From Nitrososphaerales archaeon (GTDB lineage Archaea > Thermoproteota > Nitrososphaeria > Nitrososphaerales > CADDZS01), in contig JASHXQ010000032.1 in assembly GCA_030043455.1 (NCBI GenBank), positions 1 through 13,017 on the forward strand: a stretch of 13,017 bases of DNA, written 5' to 3'. Positions 1,069 to 12,653 of this stretch are shown here, piece by piece. How positions within the stretch are numbered: position 1 is the stretch's first letter; every line of letters starts with the position of its first letter. Made by a program: the position numbers and the translations under genes. The notes beneath the pieces were generated by a model that was not told the DNA's origin, did not search any database, and saw only the letters and a list, made by a program, of their open reading frames with translations.

Positions 1069-2577
1069 TTACCGTAGAGAATCTCCCGCAATCACGAATT
1101 GAATTTCTTTCTTTTGAGAGAACTCTTGCGGGGAAAGGAAACTCAGTAGGGAGTTTACCCTTTGTCTCGCACCAACGGCCACGTTCATCGCCAGAGTGAG
1201 GTCTTCCATGCCGAAGCTTCCGTCAGGACAAAGCAGTTTCAGCAGCCCCGAGGCGACCTTCTTGATCGCTTTCTCGTCTCGGATCGTTGCATTTTCCAGG
1301 TCCACTGTCGTCTTCCAGATCATGTCAGAGTAAGAACCTTGCATCGTCATCTGATGGAAGACTTCGGACAGATAGTCGACGACGATGCCGTAACCCGTCG
1401 CGAGGTGTTTGTTGGATTGTCGTATCTTCGGCAACTCCCAGCCGGGTATGGAGGCGTGAATACGATCGAGGAATGCGGAATCGCGCATGAACGCAGGCAG
1501 GGCGCTAGTGATGTTTGCGGTACTCGGTCTCGTCACTGAAAGTTCCATGTTGCCCATGAATACGAGGGACGCCCTAGCCTGCGCTTTTTTGGGCCCTCGC
1601 TCAAAAAAACCGTCGACCATGTAGTCCTTTAACTTACCGATCATCTCCTCGCTGTTTGCGAACACTAGTTTGCCGATCTCGTCCAAGACAACGCAATCTC
1701 TGAAGCTGATTTCACCGACAGTCTTCGTGGCGATGTTGTAAAACAAAGTGGCTGGACTCACTTTCCCTCCGGAGATTAGTCTGGTAGAATAGGAGACGTT
1801 CCTGTAGAGGTAGGTTTTGCCCGTCGCCTTCGGCCCCAATTCCAGGACGTTGCAGTTTGATTCCACGAGGGGTACGAGTCTGAGTAAAATCAAATGCTTC
1901 TGATTTTCGTCGTATACCGCGGGGTTTAGTCCAACGCTTTTGATCAAAAGATCGATCCATTCGCCTCTAGAGAATGGCTTTCTTTTTTCGGCGAACTCAC
2001 TCAAACGGACGTTTACAACCTCGAAGGGAGTGAATTTGGTCATGAGGACCGGCGTGCCAGAGTCTCTTTTATCAAAGACCTGTTCCTCGGGTGTGTACTT
2101 CAGGGTCGCAACGCCCCACATACCGGAGCGCAGCAAATCCGCGTTTTCATCAAGAATCGTGGGGAGGATTTTCGCGTCTCTGACAGACAGTGACGGGATA
2201 ATCAGCCGGTGCGTCGCCCCCTTGATGTCTGTCTCCACCTTGAACTCGTCCATCAAGGTGTAACTTCCCTGAGTCATGACATCGTGGAGAATCTTGTCCC
2301 TGTCTCGGAGTTCCGGAAAGTGGATTGTCACAAATTTCTGGAGTTTTGTAACCTCTTCCTGTGTTGGGTGGCCATTGGGGTAGAATTTCGCGATGAGGTA
2401 CTCGGAAATGAATCGCGGGAGTCTGGACATTTCGTGCGCCTGGACGAGCTCCTTCATGACTAGGTAGGGGCCAAAAGCGCGCACCAGTCTGGAGTCTAGA
2501 GCTCCCTCAACTGATGTTCGCGTCTTTATCGTCTTGTTATCAGGGGTCGATGCTAATTCTTCTTCCGTAGTATTCAA
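1069..2577 (-). CDS. brxL: BrxL-like AAA+ ATPase without the C-terminal Lon domain
   Basis: BrxL is the AAA+ effector of BREX phage-defence systems and assembles into rings on double-stranded DNA. This 502-residue protein shows the family N-terminal region (about 28-130, including QGSYTLMDEFKVETD at 103-117), Walker A GPKATGKT at 248-255, Walker B VVLDE at 296-300, sensor FMGN with Asn343, and a candidate arginine finger in FLDRIHASIPGW (Arg372). The ATPase motifs look intact. Bacterial BrxL is about 680 residues and ends in a Lon-protease-like domain; here the protein stops shortly after the RQRVNSLLSFLSP segment at 471-483, about where that domain would begin. The start is TTG, preceded by GAGGGG five to eight bases upstream, and its first bases overlap the stop of the SWIM gene (TTGA), so translation is probably coupled. 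No pglX, pglZ, brxA, brxB or brxC is present. Ring formation, DNA binding and defence are inferred from family. Confidence 0.85.
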   Translation of the reverse strand: MNTTEEELASTPDNKTIKTRTSVEGALDSRLVRAFGPYLVMKELVQAHEMSRLPRFISEYLIAKFYPNGHPTQEEVTKLQKFVTIHFPELRDRDKILHDVMTQGSYTLMDEFKVETDIKGATHRLIIPSLSVRDAKILPTILDENADLLRSGMWGVATLKYTPEEQVFDKRDSGTPVLMTKFTPFEVVNVRLSEFAEKRKPFSRGEWIDLLIKSVGLNPAVYDENQKHLILLRLVPLVESNCNVLELGPKATGKTYLYRNVSYSTRLISGGKVSPATLFYNIATKTVGEISFRDCVVLDEIGKLVFANSEEMIGKLKDYMVDGFFERGPKKAQARASLVFMGNMELSVTRPSTANITSALPAFMRDSAFLDRIHASIPGWELPKIRQSNKHLATGYGIVVDYLSEVFHQMTMQGSYSDMIWKTTVDLENATIRDEKAIKKVASGLLKLLCPDGSFGMEDLTLAMNVAVGARQRVNSLLSFLSPQEFSQKKEIQFVIAGDSLR

Positions 2578-3491
2578 GTCCCCCTCGCAAAACTTTCCAC
2601 GAGTAGGTCCCAGCTGCGGGCAGTTTTCTCTCTTGACACCTTCTTCTCCTCTTTCTTCTTTTCCATCGAGGATTTACCTGCGTATCCGGTATTCTCGGCA
2701 AACATCTCGAGCACTCTTCCAAGGGTAGCGAGCGTAGCTCTGTTATAGATTTCAAGTGCCGGTAGTGCGTACCTTCGTTCGATGGCAGAAATAATGGCAA
2801 GAGAAATGTAATTTACTGTCGCAGAAAATTCTCGAAGTGGATCAAAATCGAGGAGTTCTCGGGCCGTGCCACCGTAGTCTTGGCCGACTTCGTTGCCCCA
2901 CCGCCTAATCTTAGAGTAAATTTTTTGGAGCAAATCGAGATCTTCGCTTCTGGAGCTTGTCTCCGAAGAATCCGCGACATCTTGCAGACAGCTGACCACG
3001 TCCTGCCTTGTCTTCTCAAAAAGCGATCGGAGATATTCAGGATCCTCCTCGAACTCCTCCGGATTCCTAACCCAAGCGATCATTATAGCCGCCATATGAG
3101 GACAGAGATTTCCTGCGCGGCCGAGCGGGCACTGACAATCGCCGTAAGCAGAAATTTTGGTCGAACTATTTCTTTTTAGTGTAATGCCTGTTTTGAAGAA
3201 TTGGCGTTGATTATCGTCTCCTCCTCTTGCCTCTGCCTCTCCTCGGAGAGTATCGCCTGCGACTTTTTTCCGAGAGATCGCGATCCCTCCCTGCGCTGCC
3301 ACTCGATACAAGACCACACTGCAGATCCTACGAACCTTGAATTCCGTCAGGTTGCGGAGCACATTACTTGGGGCAATTTTTCCGCCACTCTTCGAGCCCC
3401 TGCGAAGGAGAAGAAACGTTAGTTCTTCCAGCTCATCTACCTTTTTGAAGAGGAGATCGGCATGCACGTGAAACTCGGACGATTGCGACAA
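2574..3491 (-). CDS. SWIM zinc-finger protein, partner of the BrxL-like gene
   Basis: This 305-residue protein has a SWIM-type zinc finger (CxC...CxH): Cys119, Cys121, Cys130 and His132 in GDCQCPLGRAGNLCPHM. SWIM domains bind DNA or protein. The N-terminal 110 residues look mixed alpha/beta. Residues 145-270 are predicted mainly helical. A lysine/glutamate-rich stretch at 276-289 suggests a flexible charged linker before the last helix. No nuclease or ATPase motif is visible. The TTG start is chosen because the CTTAAATA box lies about 33 bases upstream and no ATG exists nearby; GTG at residue 9 is the alternative. It is the first gene of an operon with the BrxL-like gene, with overlapping stop and start (TTGA). 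Such tight pairing suggests the two act together, the SWIM protein perhaps supplying target recognition or controlling the ATPase. That role is inference. Confidence 0.75.
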   Translation of the reverse strand: MSQSSEFHVHADLLFKKVDELEELTFLLLRRGSKSGGKIAPSNVLRNLTEFKVRRICSVVLYRVAAQGGIAISRKKVAGDTLRGEAEARGGDDNQRQFFKTGITLKRNSSTKISAYGDCQCPLGRAGNLCPHMAAIMIAWVRNPEEFEEDPEYLRSLFEKTRQDVVSCLQDVADSSETSSRSEDLDLLQKIYSKIRRWGNEVGQDYGGTARELLDFDPLREFSATVNYISLAIISAIERRYALPALEIYNRATLATLGRVLEMFAENTGYAGKSSMEKKKEEKKVSREKTARSWDLLVESFARGT

Positions 3492-3981: not shown

Positions 3982-5964
3982 ATGGAAGATAACAACAAGA
4001 GAATATCTCAAGACGCACTTCTTTTTGGATCGGCACAATTTGTACCGTTCCAAAGGCGTTTGAGGGCGGGACCAGTATCTCTCGTTCTACAAGATGGCGC
4101 TATTCGCTACATCAGGCTGGGAAACGTGGAACTGGTCAGGCGTATCTACATGGCACTGCGAGATCAGAACTGGAATACCATTCCCACGGTTTATTCCGAT
4201 TGGAAGTACAATGTAAGTTCGAGTGACTTCTTGATCTCCTTCAATGCCCAAAATAAACTGGGGGATATCGATTTCGTGTGGACGGGATCGATCCTGGGCG
4301 ATCCCTCAGGAAGAGTATCTTATTCGATGAAGGGAAGGGTACAGCATCCCTTCAAAAAACGCATCATAGGAATGTGTGCCCTTTTCCCGATAAAAGAGTG
4401 CGCAGGACAGAGTGCAGAGGTTATCAAGAGCACCGGAGGCAACGTCAGTACCAGTTTCCCATTTTACATCTCTTCCTATCAACCGCTGCCGGGATTTGGC
4501 GACATTCGGAAACTGGATTTTCAAACGAAAGAGGATAGAGTGCCGGTTTCTGTAAGCTTCGAAGGCGATCTCTTCGAAATGGAGGACCAGCGAAGTTTCA
4601 CTGACGCCTCATACAAAGCGTATTCCACTTGGGTGAGGTCGGCAGAAGCTCAGGAGGTCAATGAGGGCGACGAGGTCTTTCAGACCATATCCATTTCGGT
4701 CAGCCCCCGCACTCCTTCTAACCCGGTACCTGATTCGAACTTTCCAGCGGTTGTTGATGTCGATTGGCAAAGATCGATACCTTTGCCCAAAATTGGCATT
4801 GGAATGTCAAGCGAGACGCGGGTACTCACCGAATTCGAAGCCACTCTTCTAAAGAAAATGGGGATCTCTCACCTGCGCTGCGATCTAGATCTGACGACGC
4901 ATGATTGGATGTCAAGCATGCAGATCGCCACTTCACAATCCCAACAGCTGTCAGTAGGTCTGGAGATTGCGGTCTTCGTTGACTCCCAGGCTGAAATAGA
5001 ATTGAAGCTTTTCAAGCTCGAACTCGACCGAGCTCGGCCGAATATCGCTTCCATATTGGTCATCGATAAAGGAGAACTTGCTACGACGCCTGAATCAATT
5101 AAAATTGCTCAAGTAATCTTAGGCGAATATCCATCGCATCCACTCATAGGTGGGGGCACTGATAGAAATTATTTCGATCTGAATTTCGTTCACCCATCAT
5201 TCGATCCTAATCTTGCTATTTTCTACTCGGTGAACCCACAGGTCCATGCCTTCGACGTGAGTTCAATTGTCGAGACATTGGAAGGACAATGGTGGACGAT
5301 GAAAACGGCGCAACGGTTGTACGGTAAAAATTCAGTAGCCGTTACTCCCATCACCCTAAAGCCGAGGTTTAATCCGGACGAGATAGTGCCGGAAGCTAAC
5401 GATCCCAAAGAACTACCACCCCAAGTTGATCCTCGGCAGATGTCCCTTTTCGGGGCGAGCTGGACTGCAGGAAGCGTGAAATCTTTGGCAGAATCGGGTG
5501 CGGCAAGTCTTACCTATTATCAGAGCGTAGGTTGGCGGGGCCTGATGGAAACTGAAAGTGGTTCAAAGTTACCGGATAAATTCTTGTCGAGGTCCAACAT
5601 GGTATTCCCGCTGTACCACGTTCTATGCGACATTTGCGAAATGAAGGGTGGTAATGTACATGTCTCAGAATCCAATCAGCCACTTTCCGTGAATGCCGTT
5701 ACAATCACGAGGCAAAAAGACGCTCGGACTTTGATTTACAATCTGACTTGGGAGACCCAGGAAGTCTCGATTCGCAAAATTCGATCTTCAAAAATTACGA
5801 TCCGAAGGCTTAATGATGAAACCGCTGAAAAAGCGATGTTTAGTCCTGTCCTATTCAGACAGGATTCAGGAATAATTAGAGATGTTGATGAAAATGGGAC
5901 GATCCGATTGAATCTGGCTCCATATGAAGTGGTTCGGATTGAAAGTCCGGATTATCTGGATTGA
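3982..5964 (+). CDS. apnL: D-apionate lactonase (D-apionolactonase) homologue
   Basis: ApnL hydrolyses D-apionolactone to D-apionate in the oxidative D-apiose pathway of bacteria. The 660-residue product shows the family pattern over its length: GPVSLVLQDGAIRYIRLG at 30-47 with RRIYMALRDQNW at 53-64, FPIKECAG at 135-142, the signature FEGDLFEMEDQRSFTDASYK at 193-212, a TIM-barrel part from about 265 with VHAFDVSSIVETL at 421-433 and TLKPRFNP at 458-465, then SLFGASWTAGSVKSLAESGA at 488-507 and a beta-rich C-terminal domain from about 555. Length is close to bacterial homologues. No signal peptide or membrane segment is seen, so it is cytoplasmic. The ATG at 3982 has a weak TATA-like box about 31 bases upstream. 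It precedes the phosphotriesterase-like gene by 58 bases and lies one gene away from a GH140/DUF4038 glycosidase, which supports an apiose role. A related branched-sugar lactone is possible as substrate. Confidence 0.85.
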   Translation: MEDNNKRISQDALLFGSAQFVPFQRRLRAGPVSLVLQDGAIRYIRLGNVELVRRIYMALRDQNWNTIPTVYSDWKYNVSSSDFLISFNAQNKLGDIDFVWTGSILGDPSGRVSYSMKGRVQHPFKKRIIGMCALFPIKECAGQSAEVIKSTGGNVSTSFPFYISSYQPLPGFGDIRKLDFQTKEDRVPVSVSFEGDLFEMEDQRSFTDASYKAYSTWVRSAEAQEVNEGDEVFQTISISVSPRTPSNPVPDSNFPAVVDVDWQRSIPLPKIGIGMSSETRVLTEFEATLLKKMGISHLRCDLDLTTHDWMSSMQIATSQSQQLSVGLEIAVFVDSQAEIELKLFKLELDRARPNIASILVIDKGELATTPESIKIAQVILGEYPSHPLIGGGTDRNYFDLNFVHPSFDPNLAIFYSVNPQVHAFDVSSIVETLEGQWWTMKTAQRLYGKNSVAVTPITLKPRFNPDEIVPEANDPKELPPQVDPRQMSLFGASWTAGSVKSLAESGAASLTYYQSVGWRGLMETESGSKLPDKFLSRSNMVFPLYHVLCDICEMKGGNVHVSESNQPLSVNAVTITRQKDARTLIYNLTWETQEVSIRKIRSSKITIRRLNDETAEKAMFSPVLFRQDSGIIRDVDENGTIRLNLAPYEVVRIESPDYLD

Positions 5965-5979
5965 AACAGTCCAGCAATT

Positions 5980-5994
5980 TTTGTTCAGAACAAA
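5980..5994. promoter_or_regulatory. Palindromic operator candidate before the phosphotriesterase-like gene
   Basis: TTTGTTC-A-GAACAAA is a perfect inverted repeat with 7-base arms and one central base. It overlaps the left edge of the A/T-rich TATA-like box of the next gene, where a bound regulator would block or help TBP/TFB loading. The T5 run at 5978-5982 could also serve as a T-tract terminator for the upstream lactonase gene. The bound protein is unknown. Confidence 0.45.
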
Positions 5995-6002
5995 TAAATA
6001 AC
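5990..6002 (+). promoter_or_regulatory. TATA-like box of the phosphotriesterase-like gene
   Basis: ACAAATAAATAAC is centred about 27 bases before the ATG at 6023, implying a leaderless transcript starting at about 6022. No Shine-Dalgarno sequence lies between the box and the ATG. The gene therefore seems to have its own promoter although it sits only 58 bases after the lactonase gene. Confidence 0.55.
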
Positions 6003-6022
6003 TTCAGCTCTGCTCAGCCCTT

Positions 6023-7099
6023 ATGATTAACACAGTCCTCGGGACGATCTCAGCTAGCGAGATGGGACCTACTATGGTCCACGAGCATTGCTTCATGGAT
6101 TCGGATACCGAGTTCTGGGTGAAGCTTGAGGATGTTCCTGAAAAATTCCAGAGTGTCTATCGTGGCCCCGTGATGATGTCGAACCTCGATCTGGTCAAGC
6201 GGGCAGCCGGCTACTCGATAGACAATGGGAACAACGGAGATTTGGATGAACGGATTCAGGAGCTAAGTGCTTACAAAGCTGCCGGAGGAATAACAGTGAT
6301 CGATGTTACACCGGAGGGCTTGGGAAGAAATAATCACCTGAACAAGCTTCCCCAGGCGTCCAGAGCATCCGGTGTAAACATAGTCGCCGCGACTGGACAG
6401 TACGTTCCAGCGGCTCACGCGCCTCGGATCAAAAACCAAACTGCGGAACAGATCTCGCAGGATCTGATCAAAGAAATAACGGAAGGGATTCTGAACAGCG
6501 GGTTCAAGGCAGGGGTGATCAAGACTGCGGTGGGCCCGAATCACTTTGGTGAGGCGGACGAGAAGATGATAAAGGCGGCCGCCCTAGCTCAAAAGGAAAC
6601 ACGCGTGCCGATAACCACCCATACTTGGGGTGATCTCCCTGGCAAGTGGCCCGGGTTCAAGATAATAGAAATGCTGCGAAAGAACGATGCGGACCCCAAC
6701 AAGTTCTATATGAGTCACATAGAGTGGACTGAGAGTCAGGAGAGAGACTGGGGTGCAGCAGTGAAGGCTGCGGCCGCGGGAGTTTATCTTTCCATCGATA
6801 ACTTTGGAAAAGAGTTTCCGTATGGCAGTCTCGACAACACTTTCGATGACTACGGGTACATAGGTGCGCCCACAGACCTGGACCGGTTGAGACTGATCAA
6901 GAAATTGATTTCCGAGGGCTATGAGGACAAGATCGTAGTGGGTCATGACAGCGCGTACAAAGTACAGAAGTTGGCATACGGGGGGCCGGGTCTCTGTCAT
7001 ATTCTCAACAACGTCCCCACTCTCTTCCGGCACGTGGGGATCGATGAGAGATATTTCGAGAAAATTGTGGAGGATAACCCGAGAAAGCTCTTCAGCTGA
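6023..7099 (+). CDS. Phosphotriesterase-family metal-dependent hydrolase, probably a lactonase
   Basis: This 358-residue protein belongs to the PTE family of the amidohydrolase superfamily (COG1735-like), whose members are mostly lactonases, including sugar and acyl-homoserine lactonases. The binuclear metal site can be followed: His20 and His22 in MVHEHCF, Lys167 in GVIKTAVG (the carboxylated bridging lysine), His200 in ITTHTW, His232 in MSHIEWT and Asp309 in VVGHDSAY. All six ligands are present, so it should be active. No signal peptide is visible. The ATG at 6023 is supported by a TATA-like box 27 bases upstream. A perfect 15-base palindrome overlaps the promoter. It lies between ApnL and the GH140-like gene (6 bases, convergent), so a sugar lactone, perhaps from another substrate of the same dehydrogenase, is the likely target. 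Substrate assignment is inference; organophosphate activity would be incidental. Confidence 0.8.
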   Translation: MINTVLGTISASEMGPTMVHEHCFMDSDTEFWVKLEDVPEKFQSVYRGPVMMSNLDLVKRAAGYSIDNGNNGDLDERIQELSAYKAAGGITVIDVTPEGLGRNNHLNKLPQASRASGVNIVAATGQYVPAAHAPRIKNQTAEQISQDLIKEITEGILNSGFKAGVIKTAVGPNHFGEADEKMIKAAALAQKETRVPITTHTWGDLPGKWPGFKIIEMLRKNDADPNKFYMSHIEWTESQERDWGAAVKAAAAGVYLSIDNFGKEFPYGSLDNTFDDYGYIGAPTDLDRLRLIKKLISEGYEDKIVVGHDSAYKVQKLAYGGPGLCHILNNVPTLFRHVGIDERYFEKIVEDNPRKLFS

Positions 7100-7105
7100 C
7101 CGACG

Positions 7106-8434
7106 CTACGAGCTGTTTCCCGGTGCTGGTAGTCCAGAGGTAGCATCATCGATTACAAGCGCCCAGTCTCCATCCTTCTGCGGTGTGAACTCGTGAGGTC
7201 CGGTGGTGAAATATTCTCCCGCGTCTGTCGCCTTCCCACTACTTGGGTCAAACCACCATGCCCTAACTCTGTTTGCTTCCACCTTTGTTAGATCCACCGT
7301 GATCGGCCGAGAGGTGGGCATGTAGACAATCAGGGAACGTCTGTCCTGAGTTGCGGCCACCCCCAGAGTGTCCAGACCGCGAAATTCCCCGAGACCGCTG
7401 GTCACGAGGATGTGGCTCTGATCGGGTATCAAATCGAACCATCTACGGGAACGAAAGAGATCGCCCCAGTGAAGCATCCCCATCGTGCCAGCCTTTTCCA
7501 TCTCGAGCTTCCACGGTCGCAACACCCCATGCGGCCACGCGGCGTTATTTGCAAACTCTCCTCCAAAGGACCAGATGAAAAAGTTCCCAAATACATGACC
7601 GAACCCCCCGGATAGTGCTGCCCAGTAGGCCTGCCGGCGAATCTGTACCTCCGACGAGTTGTGTTCAGCTTCGTAAGTGGATTCGATGAAAAACGTGGGC
7701 ATTATGGGTTTATGGTTGTAATCCGCCAACAGCTTTCGGTGCACTATTCCATAGGAGTAGGTTGCGTTAACGTCAAGCCAGCCACCCCCGGAAAAAATGT
7801 CTACGGACGAAAACTCCGGATAACACTGCGCTGTCATAAGATGGCGCTTGTCGTACTCCTTTATTCCGAGAGCAATCAAATCAACTCGCTCCAAGCCATC
7901 GCGGTCCGGGTTCCGGTCAGCAGCAATGGACCAAAGAATGTTGTCGAAATTAGAGTACCTCCTTCCTAGAAATCGGCCATACTCGAAGCACTGCGCGGGA
8001 GTCTGCGCTACAATCTCCTCGTACCACCCCTGGTCACTGTTGGGAACGCCAAGAAACATGGGACAGAGTAACACGAGGATATCATACTCCGCTGCTCTTT
8101 GGATCACCCAATCCACATGCGCAAAGTACTTTTCATTTGGAGTCGTAAAATCTCCGGGCTTGGAGAAAGGGGCTTCCCCGTAGAAATTATTTGGCGGATG
8201 CTGGCAAAAGGCGTGCTCGATCAGATTTACGAGAATTACGTTAAATCGCTTCTTGTTCCGGTTGGCGAGATAGTGCTCGGCATCCTCCCTCGATACCTCG
8301 ACAAACAGTGACCAGGGTGCTTCTCCCTGCAAAAGAAAGGGGATCTCTTCTTGATCTACAAGAAATCTCTTGTTTGAACTAATTTTCAATGGATACTTTA
8401 CGTGGCGGGAATTGGTAGTGCACGGAGCAGACAT
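7106..8434 (-). CDS. GH140/DUF4038 apiosidase-like glycoside hydrolase
   Basis: The 442-residue product matches the DUF4038 (apiosidase-like) TIM barrel; GH140 includes the characterised apiosidase BT1012, which cleaves at the apiose of rhamnogalacturonan-II. Visible features, numbered from the ATG at 8434, are the opening PLKISSNKRFLVDQEEIPFL (15-34), the APWSLF segment after it, the candidate acid Asp173 in SIAADRNP, and the candidate Glu251 in TFFIESTYEAEH, with a C-terminal beta domain from about 365 resembling the PF12904 module. The frame is open back to 8602, but the ATG at 8434 is favoured: homology begins just after it and a CTTAAATTT box is centred about 27 bases upstream, giving a leaderless mRNA. 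No signal peptide is seen, so it should act inside the cell on imported glycosides. DUF4038 proteins are diverse, so apiose specificity rests largely on the nearby lactonase. It converges with the phosphotriesterase-like gene. Confidence 0.8.
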   Translation of the reverse strand: MSAPCTTNSRHVKYPLKISSNKRFLVDQEEIPFLLQGEAPWSLFVEVSREDAEHYLANRNKKRFNVILVNLIEHAFCQHPPNNFYGEAPFSKPGDFTTPNEKYFAHVDWVIQRAAEYDILVLLCPMFLGVPNSDQGWYEEIVAQTPAQCFEYGRFLGRRYSNFDNILWSIAADRNPDRDGLERVDLIALGIKEYDKRHLMTAQCYPEFSSVDIFSGGGWLDVNATYSYGIVHRKLLADYNHKPIMPTFFIESTYEAEHNSSEVQIRRQAYWAALSGGFGHVFGNFFIWSFGGEFANNAAWPHGVLRPWKLEMEKAGTMGMLHWGDLFRSRRWFDLIPDQSHILVTSGLGEFRGLDTLGVAATQDRRSLIVYMPTSRPITVDLTKVEANRVRAWWFDPSSGKATDAGEYFTTGPHEFTPQKDGDWALVIDDATSGLPAPGNSS

Positions 8435-8456
8435 TGGCCACCGGACTTGGTACAGG

Positions 8457-8465
8457 AAATTTAAG
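8457..8465 (-). promoter_or_regulatory. TATA-like box of the GH140-like gene
   Basis: The minus strand reads CTTAAATTT, centred about 27 bases before the ATG at 8434. This places transcription initiation at or next to the A of that ATG and decides the start codon of the glycosidase. Because the box is nearly symmetric it might also drive rightward transcription toward the gene at 8583. A second rightward candidate is ATACTTTAGG at 8483-8492. Confidence 0.55.
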
Positions 8466-8582
8466 AGTTCACGAAAAGGGCGATACTTTAGGATGCATGT
8501 CGCACCAGAAGCAACTCTACGGCAAACACTTACTACTGTGGCTCGAGCTCGTGTCAGACTATCTGCCAGGGAAGGCGAAAGA

Positions 8583-9422
8583 ATGAAAATCGCAGTTAGC
8601 ACTGTGGCGCTGGTTCCTTATTACGGTCTACTGGATGCGATGAAGGCTTGTGCGAAGCTCGGGTTTTTGACTTTAGAGCTCCCGGGAGATCGACCGCATG
8701 CGTGGCCTAAGGATCTCAGAGGCGATGAAAGACGACAGATAGGACAGTATCTGCAAGAGAACCAACTTGAAGCTGAGATTATCAGCATCGATGGATCCTA
8801 TTTGCTGGGACCGGGATTATGTAGCGAAGATGAGGAAGTACGGAGCGATCTCTTCTCTTACATCAAGGATCTGATCGAGCTTGGTTCAGATCTCGGTTGC
8901 TCTAAATTTATTTTTGTTCCGGGGCGTCCGCTAAAAACGACACCAGATGCGAGAGGACGAGAACTCGCGAATAGAGCACTGGGGGAATGCTGCGATTATG
9001 CCAAGCGGTATAACATGCTTGTATGCATCGAAAATGCTCCGTTTCCGACTGGTTATCTGGAAACAGTAGAGAAAATGCAGAGTATGATACAAAACGTGTC
9101 TGCATCAAATCTCGCGGTGCGCTTAGATCCATGTCACTGCAACGTATCAAAGGAAGACTTTACAGAATTTTGCACTGCGTTCAGAGGAAAAATTGCAAGC
9201 GTCGGGCTCCACGATAATAAGGGAGATGCAGACTCACATCTTCCAATCGGAATGGGGAATGTGAAAATTGAGTCCGCGATCCATTCCCTCCGAAGCGTAG
9301 GATATGATGGAAGCATGACAATAGAAATCTTACCTTTTGAAGGATGGAGAGAGGAGCAGGTGGATGCGTATCTCTTAGAAAGCAAGAAGACCGTCGAAAA
9401 TTTGCTTGTTCGATCCGAATGA
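8583..9422 (+). CDS. Sugar isomerase/epimerase-like TIM-barrel protein (AP_endonuc_2 family)
   Basis: This 279-residue protein belongs to the xylose-isomerase-like TIM-barrel family (PF01261; COG1082), which holds sugar isomerases, epimerases, dehydratases and some sugar-acid decarboxylases. The probable metal ligands are Glu150 in CIENAPF, Asp182 in VRLDPCH, His210 in GLHDN and Glu248 in TIEILPF, with His185 and Glu149-region strands as expected. The frame is open back to 8370 and has another ATG at 8493. The ATG at 8583 is preferred because the first barrel strand MKIAVSTVAL starts exactly there and a weak purine run (GGGAAGGCGAAAG) precedes it; the extra 30 residues from 8493 look unlike the family. 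It is divergent from the GH140-like gene. In this context it may be a D-apiose isomerase or may act on an oxidised derivative such as 3-oxo-isoapionate; the sequence alone does not decide. Confidence 0.8.
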   Translation: MKIAVSTVALVPYYGLLDAMKACAKLGFLTLELPGDRPHAWPKDLRGDERRQIGQYLQENQLEAEIISIDGSYLLGPGLCSEDEEVRSDLFSYIKDLIELGSDLGCSKFIFVPGRPLKTTPDARGRELANRALGECCDYAKRYNMLVCIENAPFPTGYLETVEKMQSMIQNVSASNLAVRLDPCHCNVSKEDFTEFCTAFRGKIASVGLHDNKGDADSHLPIGMGNVKIESAIHSLRSVGYDGSMTIEILPFEGWREEQVDAYLLESKKTVENLLVRSE

Positions 9423-9473
9423 CGGCCCTTCCAGTCAGCGAAATAGCTTGCGTCCTTGGAAAGCTTTAACCTG

Positions 9474-9485
9474 CATATTATAATC
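9474..9485 (+). promoter_or_regulatory. TATA-like box of the FGD-like gene
   Basis: CATATTATAATC is centred about 28 bases before the TTG at 9508, predicting a leaderless transcript. AAGCTTTAACC at 9461-9471 is an alternative box giving a leader of about 15 bases. Two tandem copies of CGGGTTA (9494-9507) lie between the box and the start codon and could influence initiation or bind a regulator. Confidence 0.5.
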
Positions 9486-9507
9486 GTCAGAGTCGGGTTA
9501 CGGGTTA

Positions 9508-10518
9508 TTGATTTCCCCTAGGAAAAGGTCGGTGGGGTATTATTGCATCCCTGATATGAGGGATGCCCGGGCTCTGATCCGACATGCGAGGATGGCAGTA
9601 AAAGCCGGATTCAGCATGGTCTGGGTTGCTGATCACTTTCATCCGTGGTTTCACACAGAGGCGCATGAAGCGAATGCGTGGGTGTGGATGGCAGCTGCAA
9701 TGGCAGAGATAAGAGACGTTCCCTTTGGGACATTCGTCACCGCACCGATTCTAAGGTACCATCCCGGGATTGTCGCGCAAGCCTTCGCGACATTGCAGTC
9801 GATCTATGGAGATAGAGTGATCCTCGGTCTTGGCTCAGGAGAGGCGATGAATGAAATCCCTCTCGGATTCAAGTGGCCCTCAGTGAAAGAGAGAAAGGAG
9901 AGGATGAAAGAGGCCATAGAGGTAATTCACAAACTGTGGGGTGAAGAGTTTGTAACGTATCGGGGAAAGTACTATTCGCTCGAGGGCGCTAACCTGTACA
10001 TGAAAGCGACAATTCCGATCTATCTTGCCGCGTTTGGTCCCAAGATGGGAAAACTGGCGGGACGCGTGGCCGACGGCCTGATAACATCTGTACGGCCGTT
10101 CGAATATTTCACAAGCACTCTCTTTCCCGCCGTGGCTGAAGGAGCAAAGACTGCTGGTAGGAAGCTCGGTGATGTTACCAAGATTTTAGAAATCGATGTT
10201 TCGTGGTCGGACGAGTATGACAGTGCAATCGCCTCGACTCGTAGATGGAAGGCCGGATTGCTCCCTAGTCTGTTCGAAGATCCAATCTCGGATCCCCGAA
10301 TTATTGAGAAGATGGGACTCGATAGTGTTCCCGATAAAGCGCTGGATGAAATTTATGTAATCAGTTCAAGCCCCGAGGACCACATTAAGAAAATTGAGGA
10401 CGCCTTTACTTGCGGTTTCGATCACATTTGCCTCTTTAGCTCTAGTCCGAATGAGGACCGGACTATCGAGATGTACGGCAAGAAGGTTCTTCCGTATTTT
10501 GGGCAACAGACATCCTAA
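9508..10518 (+). CDS. F420-dependent FGD-like sugar dehydrogenase
   Basis: The 336-residue product resembles F420-dependent glucose-6-phosphate dehydrogenase (FGD), which oxidises the sugar anomeric carbon to a lactone while reducing F420. Residues matching the Mycobacterium enzyme's Asp39, His40, Trp44 and Glu109 are present as Asp42, His43, Trp47 (ADHFHPW) and Glu112 (GSGEAMNE), with the same 70-residue spacing; QAFATLQSIYGDRVILGLG is also typical. By eye alignment, the glucose-6-phosphate phosphate ligands Lys198, Lys259 and Arg283 are not kept: the last two fall at Glu in LFEDPISDP and Ile in DEIYVISSSP, and the first lies near Arg in TSVRPFEYF. The substrate is therefore probably unphosphorylated. 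The TTG start is supported by a TATA-like box 28 bases upstream; GTG at 9532 is possible. With ApnL nearby, a D-apiose 1-dehydrogenase making apionolactone is a reasonable inference. Confidence 0.83.
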   Translation: MISPRKRSVGYYCIPDMRDARALIRHARMAVKAGFSMVWVADHFHPWFHTEAHEANAWVWMAAAMAEIRDVPFGTFVTAPILRYHPGIVAQAFATLQSIYGDRVILGLGSGEAMNEIPLGFKWPSVKERKERMKEAIEVIHKLWGEEFVTYRGKYYSLEGANLYMKATIPIYLAAFGPKMGKLAGRVADGLITSVRPFEYFTSTLFPAVAEGAKTAGRKLGDVTKILEIDVSWSDEYDSAIASTRRWKAGLLPSLFEDPISDPRIIEKMGLDSVPDKALDEIYVISSSPEDHIKKIEDAFTCGFDHICLFSSSPNEDRTIEMYGKKVLPYFGQQTS

Positions 10519-10562: not shown

Positions 10563-12653
10563 CTAAGAAGTAAAAGTCACCGTGTTGAAAATTGGTATCG
10601 TACTTATGCCACCGTAGAGGGGATCCATGTAGGCATTCTGGACGACGTTACTGTCCCAGGCCGGGGAGGAATCACCAAAGAGGTATTTGCAGATCCCCCA
10701 ACCCCAATAAGGTGCGTCATCGTAAATCTGTGTCTGAGCTTGTGTACAAATCGATTGTATCGTAGCTACGCTTGACCCGTTAAAGAAGGCCTCCTGACAA
10801 GCATCGGTGATTGGTGTACTGTAAATGGCTGTATTGGAAAACGCAGAGTTATTTGTTACAAAGGCCGTCCAATATTCGACCGGAGATAAGAATTCGGGTT
10901 GAGCGTCCTGGCCCTCGGGATCAATAATGTTCGAAACTGTCTGGGTGTTGTTTATCAAATACGAATAGGGCTCACAGATTATTTGACACCACTCATCGAA
11001 AGTATCTTCTTGGATCGTTATTGTGATTCCAATTTGAGCAACATCTGCCTGAACTACTGAGGCCCTGTTGAGGCAGAGGTCACAATTAGAGGCTATCGTC
11101 CAGTTCAGCGCAGGCAAGCCCTTGCCATTGGGAAAGCCAGCCGCTGCCAATTCCTGACTGGCTAACGTCAGATTGTATGAATAAGGCGTGTAGTTTCCCA
11201 GATCGTAGAACTGTGACCAAGCGGGATATTCTGGCCCCACAATCTGACTGAATCCCCCGACACCATACGATTGTGAAATTAGGGCGGTCATATTGATCGC
11301 GTGAACAATTGCGAGCCTCACATCAGTTATGTTCGTCGGATAAATTTGCGTATTGAATGATTCGAGGGCCATTTCTCCCGACGAAGGAGGCATGATGACG
11401 TATCCAAACTTTGTAGGGTTTGCTAGTATTAGACCAAAAACTGAAGCTTGGGTTGGATCGATCATCTGAGCTGCACCTGTAGAAAGATCAATGTATCTCG
11501 ATGTAGGATCTGGAACCACTCTGATGAGTATGCTCTTCACATGACCCGGATCGATAACGGGATTTGAAACAATGGTTGATTCAGGGAGGTTCTTGCCCCA
11601 GTAAGTGGGATTTTGAGCAAACTGCACGTACTGCTCATTTTGGACTCCAGTCACCATATACGGGCCAGTCCCTGGTATCGCATTCAAATTGAAATACGTA
11701 TTGAGAGCCGTGGGGGTGCCAAAGGCGCCGTTTTGCAATAGGTACTGGGCGTCATACATGCATCCAATCAATGCTTGAAGAGTTCCTAGGAACCACTGAA
11801 AAGAATGCACGAGATGGAAGGCGATTGTAGTCGCATTAACGACATAGATCGGCCACGAGCTATTGGTCATCATGGCCAAAGCCTGAGGGGTAGGGTTGAT
11901 CAATCCACTCTGTTGCAATAGGGAAATCGAAGCTGGTCCGAAATTCACTGGGGTCATGTTGAACAAGGGATAGCCATTGTACCACGCTGAGGAATTGTCA
12001 GACAAGTAATAGAATCCGTAGTACACTGTCCAAACTTGGTATGCGTTGAATGGATCTCCATTGGAGAATGTTACGTTGTTTCTGAGATTAAACGTCCACG
12101 TAGTTCCATCAGCAGAAACATTCCAAGAGGTTGCGAGATCGGGGAGGTACTGGATTACCCCGCTAGGATAATCGGCTGTCAAATTTACGGCTACCAGAGT
12201 TTGCCACGAAGTATATCCTGGAAGATCTGGATAAATCCCGGCACCCGGTGCCAAAAGTTGGTTGAGACTTCCAAGGGGCCAGGAACCGATGTCGATTGTG
12301 AAAGTATTGTTGTCGTAAACGCCTCCTACTGCAGAAGATGATACAGAGGTTGAACTGACGGTGGTTTGGGTTGTTGAGGTAGCCGTACTTGTAAGGCTGG
12401 ACGAAGATATAGAAGAGAAGGAACTAGAAGGGGATGAAGTCGACAATGAAGACATCGGGGAACTGGAGGAACTCGTAGTCAAGATAGACGAAGAGCTAGA
12501 GGAAGAAGAAGTTGAGCTGATAGAACTTGTTGTAGACGAGCTTTTGCTCACCCCCAATGATAGAACCGCCCCAGCGGCCACTACAATTATTACAATGACT
12601 ACAACTGCAACCAGGATTCTAGAGATAGCCAGGTTTTGCCTTCTGTAATACAA
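10563..12653 (-). CDS. ABC transporter family 5 solute-binding protein, membrane anchored
   Basis: This 696-residue protein is a family 5 (OppA/DppA-like) extracellular binding protein; in archaea such proteins bind oligosaccharides as well as peptides. It opens with basic MYYRRQNLA, then a hydrophobic segment (about 10-34, ISRILVAVVVIVIIVV), a Ser/Thr linker at about 36-108, and the binding domain from about 110 (PDLATSWNVSADGTTWTFNL; RNNVTFSNGDPF). The short basic start followed at once by the hydrophobic stretch resembles archaeal class III (pilin-like) signals, with possible cleavage after Ala9; a plain anchor is the alternative. About 16 N-X-S/T sequons suggest heavy glycosylation, and cysteine pairs (NCDLC, EWCQIIC) may form disulfides. 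The TTG start fits the CTTAAATA box 39 bases upstream; no ATG is close. An inverted repeat lies between box and start. No permease or ATPase gene is in the window. A plant glycoside ligand is inferred from neighbours only. Confidence 0.88.
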   Translation of the reverse strand: MYYRRQNLAISRILVAVVVIVIIVVAAGAVLSLGVSKSSSTTSSISSTSSSSSSSSILTTSSSSSPMSSLSTSSPSSSFSSISSSSLTSTATSTTQTTVSSTSVSSSAVGGVYDNNTFTIDIGSWPLGSLNQLLAPGAGIYPDLPGYTSWQTLVAVNLTADYPSGVIQYLPDLATSWNVSADGTTWTFNLRNNVTFSNGDPFNAYQVWTVYYGFYYLSDNSSAWYNGYPLFNMTPVNFGPASISLLQQSGLINPTPQALAMMTNSSWPIYVVNATTIAFHLVHSFQWFLGTLQALIGCMYDAQYLLQNGAFGTPTALNTYFNLNAIPGTGPYMVTGVQNEQYVQFAQNPTYWGKNLPESTIVSNPVIDPGHVKSILIRVVPDPTSRYIDLSTGAAQMIDPTQASVFGLILANPTKFGYVIMPPSSGEMALESFNTQIYPTNITDVRLAIVHAINMTALISQSYGVGGFSQIVGPEYPAWSQFYDLGNYTPYSYNLTLASQELAAAGFPNGKGLPALNWTIASNCDLCLNRASVVQADVAQIGITITIQEDTFDEWCQIICEPYSYLINNTQTVSNIIDPEGQDAQPEFLSPVEYWTAFVTNNSAFSNTAIYSTPITDACQEAFFNGSSVATIQSICTQAQTQIYDDAPYWGWGICKYLFGDSSPAWDSNVVQNAYMDPLYGGISTIPIFNTVTFTS

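Follow-up and report, generated by a model that had tools for sequence, protein, structure and literature searches.

The 13,017-nucleotide stretch of Nitrososphaerales DNA analysed here (contig JASHXQ010000032.1; hereafter the window) carries a gene for a relative of the D-apionate lactonase ApnL, in the company of genes for a GH140 apiosidase-like glycosidase, a PTE-family hydrolase, a xylose-isomerase-like TIM barrel and an F420-dependent dehydrogenase. Based on protein families, conserved residues, gene neighbourhoods and predicted folds, we give about an even chance to the reading that these genes form an apioside-oxidation module of what is probably a heterotrophic archaeon of the Nitrososphaerales type. 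In this module, an apiose-bearing glycoside would be taken up by an importer linked to a solute-binding protein, after which a probably cytosolic GH140 enzyme would release D-apiose. The F420-dependent enzyme, given its FGD/Adf family and lost phosphate pocket, would then oxidise C1 of the furanose to D-apionolactone with formation of F420H2, and the ApnL-like protein would hydrolyse this lactone to D-apionate. The PTE-family protein as a possible second lactonase and the TIM barrel as a possible epimerase or isomerase are guesses. Uptake, intracellular apiose release, F420-dependent oxidation and lactone hydrolysis are the simplest joint account of these genes.

Judged by its sequence, the ApnL-like protein is a member of the ApnL family outside the strict equivalog. 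Its residues 13 to 598 (of 660) align with positions 4 to 594 (of 595) of the NF049900 profile for D-apionate lactonase ApnL, i.e. from end to end. Ten residues, R60, W64, E199, E201, D202, R204, D208, K212, H422 and R485, are invariant in 108/108 family rows (31 positions counted), including the ApnL of a Shinella plasmid that scores 813 bits. E199, E201, H422 and R485 belong to the proposed site; none of the ten is known to be catalytic. Predicted structures (pLDDT 93.0 and 87.7), the folds of which were compared with the PDB, comprise a mutarotase-like N-terminal domain (residues ~24–245), a (beta/alpha)8 barrel (~270–522) and a C-terminal beta sandwich, with the invariant residues mostly within the mutarotase-like domain of the model. 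The modelled barrel is of the clan GH-A kind, in which strands 4 and 7 each end with a conserved catalytic glutamate. With strands assigned by their order on the predicted model, without superposition, these glutamates are not kept: E365 near strand 4 is present in 69/108 rows, and strand 7 ends in T-L-K-P-R, without a glutamate. An identity as an active clan GH-A glycosidase was therefore dropped. Hydrolysis of D-apionolactone is the candidate activity.

A PDB sequence search with this protein gave no matches up to E 1, and no relative was found in the viral contigs searched. The Pfam-A scan returned no family for either this protein or the Shinella ApnL, a result not used as evidence since the installed models are suspected to be incomplete; PF25837/PF25838 are listed for the ApnL-like protein in the protein database. 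The 15 closest relatives among the matches listed (P0002–P0016) are 45–63% identical. Three of them (P0005, P0013 and P0014) bear Nitrososphaerales or Thaumarchaeota names; for the remaining close relatives no taxon is given.

Next, bacterial relatives were collected. A profile search of genome contigs with an archaeal-like profile yielded at least 591 stretches, at least 581 of them confirmed, and 80 loci that are bacterial by title were kept, with ApnL-like proteins 32–40% identical to the window protein. The Shinella plasmid (CP132317.1; L104) served as the reference locus and encodes a PGDH_C protein, an ABC transporter, a Gfo/Idh/MocA protein, ApnL, a RuBisCO-like protein and a four-carbon acid sugar kinase. 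We take the PGDH_C protein to be ApnO, the Gfo/Idh/MocA protein to be ApsD and the kinase to be OiaK, and read the whole as a canonical apionate neighbourhood. With the Shinella proteins as BLAST queries (E 1e-10) against flanks of up to 10 kb, some of them short, ApnO was found in 20 of the 80 loci, the RuBisCO-like protein in 15, OiaK in 15 and an ApsD-like protein in 20. ApnO and/or the RuBisCO-like protein occurred in 22/80 loci, where the ApnL-like proteins are 32–39% identical to that of the window. Among direct neighbours, Pfam identified RuBisCO_large downstream in 6/76 cases, and PGDH_C (3/74) and Apiosidase (2/74) upstream.

In a quick tree (LG+G4, 108 rows; 31/105 inner branches under 80), an archaeal-like clade (14 rows, SH-aLRT 100) falls within the bacterial ApnL-like proteins. 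The ApnO/RuBisCO-like label requires 18 changes on this tree, versus a shuffled mean of 20.3 (40/500 shuffles as low), so the apionate context is scattered across the tree rather than limited to a distant part of it. The archaeal-like clade thus appears to be bracketed by likely apionate-pathway members. The description of the window protein as a D-apionate lactonase homologue in an earlier, sequence-only reading holds as far as the end-to-end alignment and the nesting within a family recurring in apionate gene sets are concerned; the equivalog score (213 versus 750 bits) does not bear it out.

The GH140 assignment made in that reading was upheld by the profile search, in which both PF13204 Apiosidase (cut-off 26.5 bits) and PF12904 exceed their cut-offs (Table 1). 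The best solved relative is 8t9w, named 'Apiosidase', with 171 bits over residues 18–434, followed by 3kzs/5msy with 136 bits. The window protein shares both Pfam domains and the Asp/Glu pair with these enzymes, but its scores against them are just the two given. D173 and E251, placed by alignment to 8t9w, are identical in 121/121 rows (the window protein and 120 relatives among the matches listed), and we presume that they are the GH140 catalytic Asp and Glu. No signal peptide is evident by eye (no predictor used), and the enzyme is probably cytosolic. The closest relatives among the matches listed are 63–77% alike; P0127 (63%), named Thaumarchaeota, and P0235 (56%) carry Nitrososphaerales or Thaumarchaeota names, and the Terriglobia-named P0189 and P0213 follow at 55–56%. 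Release of apiose by this apiosidase-like enzyme is a candidate activity.

The two genes also meet in bacteria. By BLAST and Pfam, a GH140-type gene lies within the flanks (up to 10 kb) of 8/80 ApnL-like loci (L023, L025, L028, L032, L036, L038, L061 and L075), against 0.54 expected. PF13204 is over its cut-off in 7/8 of these, L061 being weak (39 bits), and the GH140 gene of L036, truncated at the end of its contig, matches PF12904 only. The expectation uses a PF13204 density of 128 matches in 277.5 Mb, taken from 50 of the 80 genomes (all eight positive loci included) and applied to the flanks of all 80, which gives Poisson P values of 1.2e-7 for at least eight loci and 1.7e-6 for at least seven. 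This enrichment points to a shared substrate. GH140 was detected in 2/201 Chloroflexota genomes at E 1e-50 and in 22/50 ApnL-like genomes at E 1e-40, rates that differ in phyla and thresholds and were not used as a test. The 50 genomes of the latter count are not quite those of the density estimate, for which L036 was added and L080 omitted. Within the class and phylum to which G215 (the Acidobacteria genome that contains L020) belongs, same-clade GH140 was found in 5/299 genomes (E 1e-100) and ApnL-like genes in 5/297 (E 1e-60).

The F420-dependent protein matches TIGR03557 just over the cut-off (212.4 versus 210.4 bits). It belongs to the family of FGD1 and keeps H43, W47 and E112, the equivalents of FGD1 His40, Trp44 and Glu109. 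The phosphate pocket is where the two differ. As given in the available parts of PMC5352752 and PMC3478262, the pocket of FGD1 consists of Lys198, Lys259 and Arg283. The corresponding positions here are R196, E257 and I282, and 0/120 relatives (the best 120 of 1258) are basic at the second and third of these positions together. Since the pocket is lost, a free sugar is a likelier substrate than glucose-6-phosphate. A relative without the pocket residues had no FGD activity according to the part of PMC3478262 available. The label 'glucose-6-phosphate dehydrogenase' is therefore doubtful for the window protein and these relatives. We propose a 1-dehydrogenase for an unphosphorylated sugar. Several relatives among the matches listed are named Nitrososphaerales or Thaumarchaeota. 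An identical 328-residue protein (P0241) is found on two contigs, the longest of 15,792 bases; a longer assembly of the locus seems to exist.

Matching longest-contig sizes and source tags suggest two cases in which an ApnL-like gene shares a contig with an F420 gene and one in which it does so with a GH140 gene. The pairs are ApnL-like P0007 and F420 P0243 (18,526; ncbi), ApnL-like P0008 and F420 P0246 (23,085; lgn), and ApnL-like P0004 and GH140 P0130 (188,882; jgi, lgn, ena). P0243 and P0246 are close orthologues of the window F420 protein (75% and 78%). Among the best 120 matches listed for each protein, no contig carried all three. The closest bacterial parallel is L036, a Chloroflexi contig with genes for GH140, an SDR, a PTE-family protein, an FGGY kinase, a TIM barrel, a BhcC-like protein and an ApnL-like protein. 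Four classes are shared with the window, i.e. GH140 (the edge-cut fragment, 53% alike), PTE, TIM barrel and ApnL-like, all within 8.5 kb. L036 differs in its dehydrogenase, an SDR where the window has the F420 enzyme, in its FGGY kinase and BhcC-like gene, and in the low likeness of its PTE (28%) and TIM barrel (27%). BhcC-like PLP enzymes at L111:4153-5232 (-) and L112:1050-2105 (+), 42–43% alike to that at L036:5338-6456 (+), recur near same-clade GH140 genes.

Nine genes of the window were scanned with Pfam-A and NCBIfam models. All five enzyme genes named in the sequence-only reading are open reading frames whose classes agree with the family matches, and together with a solute-binding protein gene they are listed in Table 1. 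The lactonase homologue and the GH140 gene, placed there within 1.2 kb of each other, are separated by ~1.14 kb. The PTE gene begins 58 bases past the ApnL-like stop on the same strand; 6 bases separate the PTE stop from the end of the GH140 gene, which is on the opposite strand, and the GH140 and TIM-barrel genes are divergent. As the named genes occupy both strands, the set is not one operon. The solute-binding protein has a hydrophobic N-terminal segment and a Ser/Thr-rich linker, and we infer that it belongs to the apiose gene set.

Table 1. Genes of the candidate apioside-oxidation module and the neighbouring solute-binding protein gene (positions in the window)
Protein	Position	Strand	Size and family matches
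ApnL-like protein, candidate aldonolactonase	3982-5964	+	660 aa; NF049900 213.2 bits
PTE-family metallohydrolase, candidate second lactonase	6023-7099	+	PF02126 175.9 bits
GH140/DUF4038 apiosidase-like glycosidase	7106-8434	-	442 aa; PF13204 223.8 bits; PF12904 62.7 bits
Xylose-isomerase-like TIM barrel, putative epimerase/isomerase	8583-9422 (searched as 8580-9422)	+	PF01261 129.8 bits
F420-dependent LLM dehydrogenase, TIGR03557 type, proposed unphosphorylated-sugar 1-dehydrogenase	9508-10518	+	PF00296; TIGR03557 212.4 bits
Family 5 solute-binding protein, candidate importer binding part	10563-12653	-	PF00496 172.5 bits

The PTE-family hydrolase has H20, H22, K167, H200, H232 and D309, which fit what we take to be the two-metal ligand motif of the family. 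Its best solved relatives are 9efa and 3k2g, and it may be a second lactonase. For the TIM barrel, which may be an epimerase or isomerase, the best NCBIfam match is IolO (63.4 bits, under the cut-off of 300) and a solved relative is 3wqo (MJ1311). Identity with the type of TIM barrel found beside ApnO was considered and dropped, the only match being to the L036 protein. TIM-barrel genes adjoining ApnL-like genes, and lying between ApnO-like and ApsD-like genes, occur at L113:6091-6906 (-) and L114:1691-2506 (-). No RuBisCO-like gene was found in these two fetched stretches, and their TIM barrels are candidate enzymes of another apionate branch.

The sequence-only reading had also proposed an archaeal origin from promoter style, TTG starts and cofactor type. 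The names of the ApnL-like, GH140 and F420 relatives make this origin likely, whereas the promoter argument is weak: the motif TTTAWAWR has no match in the window versus 3.25 expected, and the sole archaeal-type box noticed is TTCTTAAATAG, ~35–45 bases upstream of the solute-binding protein start. TTG is the mechanical first start of the genes at 9508, 12653, 2577 and 3491, where true starts may differ. Elsewhere in the window, a BrxL protein (1069-2577, -) scores 444.6 bits against an NCBIfam cut-off of 329.3. Its gene overlaps a 305-aa gene (2574-3491, -) that carries a SWIM-like motif (CxC...CxH) and matches no family, and no other BREX family was found among the nine scanned genes. A second LLM F420 protein (35-1039, +) is nearest to the Mer family (237 bits, under the cut-off of 276).

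To our knowledge, the oxidative apiose pathway is known only from bacteria; it was reportedly described by Carter et al. in 2018. The window resembles it in the ApnL-family lactonase, in the logic of a sugar 1-dehydrogenase followed by a lactonase and in the nearby transport gene. It differs in having an F420 LLM enzyme where the pathway has a Gfo/Idh/MocA dehydrogenase, in lacking ApnO, the RuBisCO-like protein and OiaK, and in adding GH140, PTE and TIM-barrel genes. RuBisCO-like proteins take part in D-apiose catabolism, as stated in the available parts of PMC10103415 and PMC6302742. A literature search of titles and abstract openings, with most subscription papers outside its scope, found no account of apiose catabolism in archaea.

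Several observations weigh against an apioside-oxidation module. The ApnL-like protein misses the NF049900 equivalog cut-off (213.2 versus 750 bits), where L104 reaches 813.3, L106 622.7, L107 615.4 and L036 256.3 bits, and it is only ~26% identical to the Shinella ApnL; homologues below the cut-off are common (5/5 genomes, none over it). Among the nine window genes, Pfam found no PGDH_C, RuBisCO-like or Gfo/Idh/MocA match, so that ApsD, ApnO, the RuBisCO-like protein and OiaK are missing beside the ApnL-like gene, and the steps past apionate lie outside the window. Of the sequence-only reading, the parts that find backing are the enzyme classes, a likely archaeal source and, in bacteria, the association of ApnL-like genes with GH140 (8/80) and with apionate genes (22/80). 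Two adjoining lactonase candidates are one too many for the scheme. The window TIM barrel matches only that of L036 (27%, E 4e-18) and none beside ApnO, and the PTE of L036 (28% alike) reads GVMGELG versus GVIKTAVG in the window and is thus probably of a different subfamily. Same-clade bacterial GH140 regions of an Acidobacteria group (L103, L108–L112) had an ApnL-like gene in 0/6 of the fetched stretches. Finally, the 188,882 contig size is not among the F420 matches listed, nor are 18,526 and 23,085 among the GH140 matches listed.

Part of this evidence would suit a set of glycosidase, F420-dependent sugar 1-dehydrogenase and lactonases that follows the same logic on another furanose or branched sugar, an explanation we consider unlikely but the strongest of the alternatives. 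The low equivalog score and the TIM barrel unlike those of apionate loci speak for it, as do the breadth of the Apiosidase Pfam family (the 128 matches in 50 genomes) and the 58/80 bacterial loci with neither ApnO nor the RuBisCO-like protein in their flanks, some of which are short. It fits less well with apionate-type contexts all over the ApnL-like tree, also around the archaeal-like clade, and with the GH140 enrichment beside ApnL-like genes, which points to a common substrate.

Alternatively, the F420 enzyme could act as an Adf-like alcohol dehydrogenase or supply F420H2 to counter oxidative stress, being just a neighbour of an apiose hydrolysis pair. The F420-dependent alcohol dehydrogenase Adf (1rhc, 236 bits) indeed outranks FGD1 (211 bits) among solved relatives, and in Gagatemarchaeum up to 12 copies of F420-dependent glucose-6-phosphate dehydrogenase are read as stress resistance in the part of PMC10640624 available. 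Against this, the 75% and 78% orthologues appear to share their two contigs with ApnL-like relatives, and the loss of the phosphate pocket fits free-sugar oxidation, making this explanation rather improbable. That unrelated soil-archaeal metabolic genes lie side by side by chance, without a joint pathway, would suit their distribution over both strands but seems very improbable given that L036 again brings together four of the gene classes and that ApnL-like and GH140 genes are close in 8/80 loci versus 0.54 expected.

If an archaeal apioside-oxidation module is indeed present, apiose use would extend to archaea and F420 would gain a catabolic, sugar-oxidising role in this domain. More specifically, and tentatively at somewhat less than an even chance, archaea would cleave plant apiosides within the cell, oxidise the apiose with F420 and open the lactone by a mutarotase-domain hydrolase built on a disarmed glycosidase barrel. 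On this view, heterotrophic Thaumarchaeota would use their many 'F420-dependent glucose-6-phosphate dehydrogenases' as free-sugar dehydrogenases feeding the F420 pool, not as stress enzymes with glucose-6-phosphate as substrate. For the ApnL family, a picture open to testing emerges, with invariant residues mostly in the mutarotase-like domain and a barrel without glycosidase glutamates. The module would also suggest what one branch of the F420 'glucose-6-phosphate dehydrogenase' family acts on, a family that is expanded in heterotrophic soil Thaumarchaeota and the copy number of which is interpreted as stress resistance in the available part of PMC10640624.

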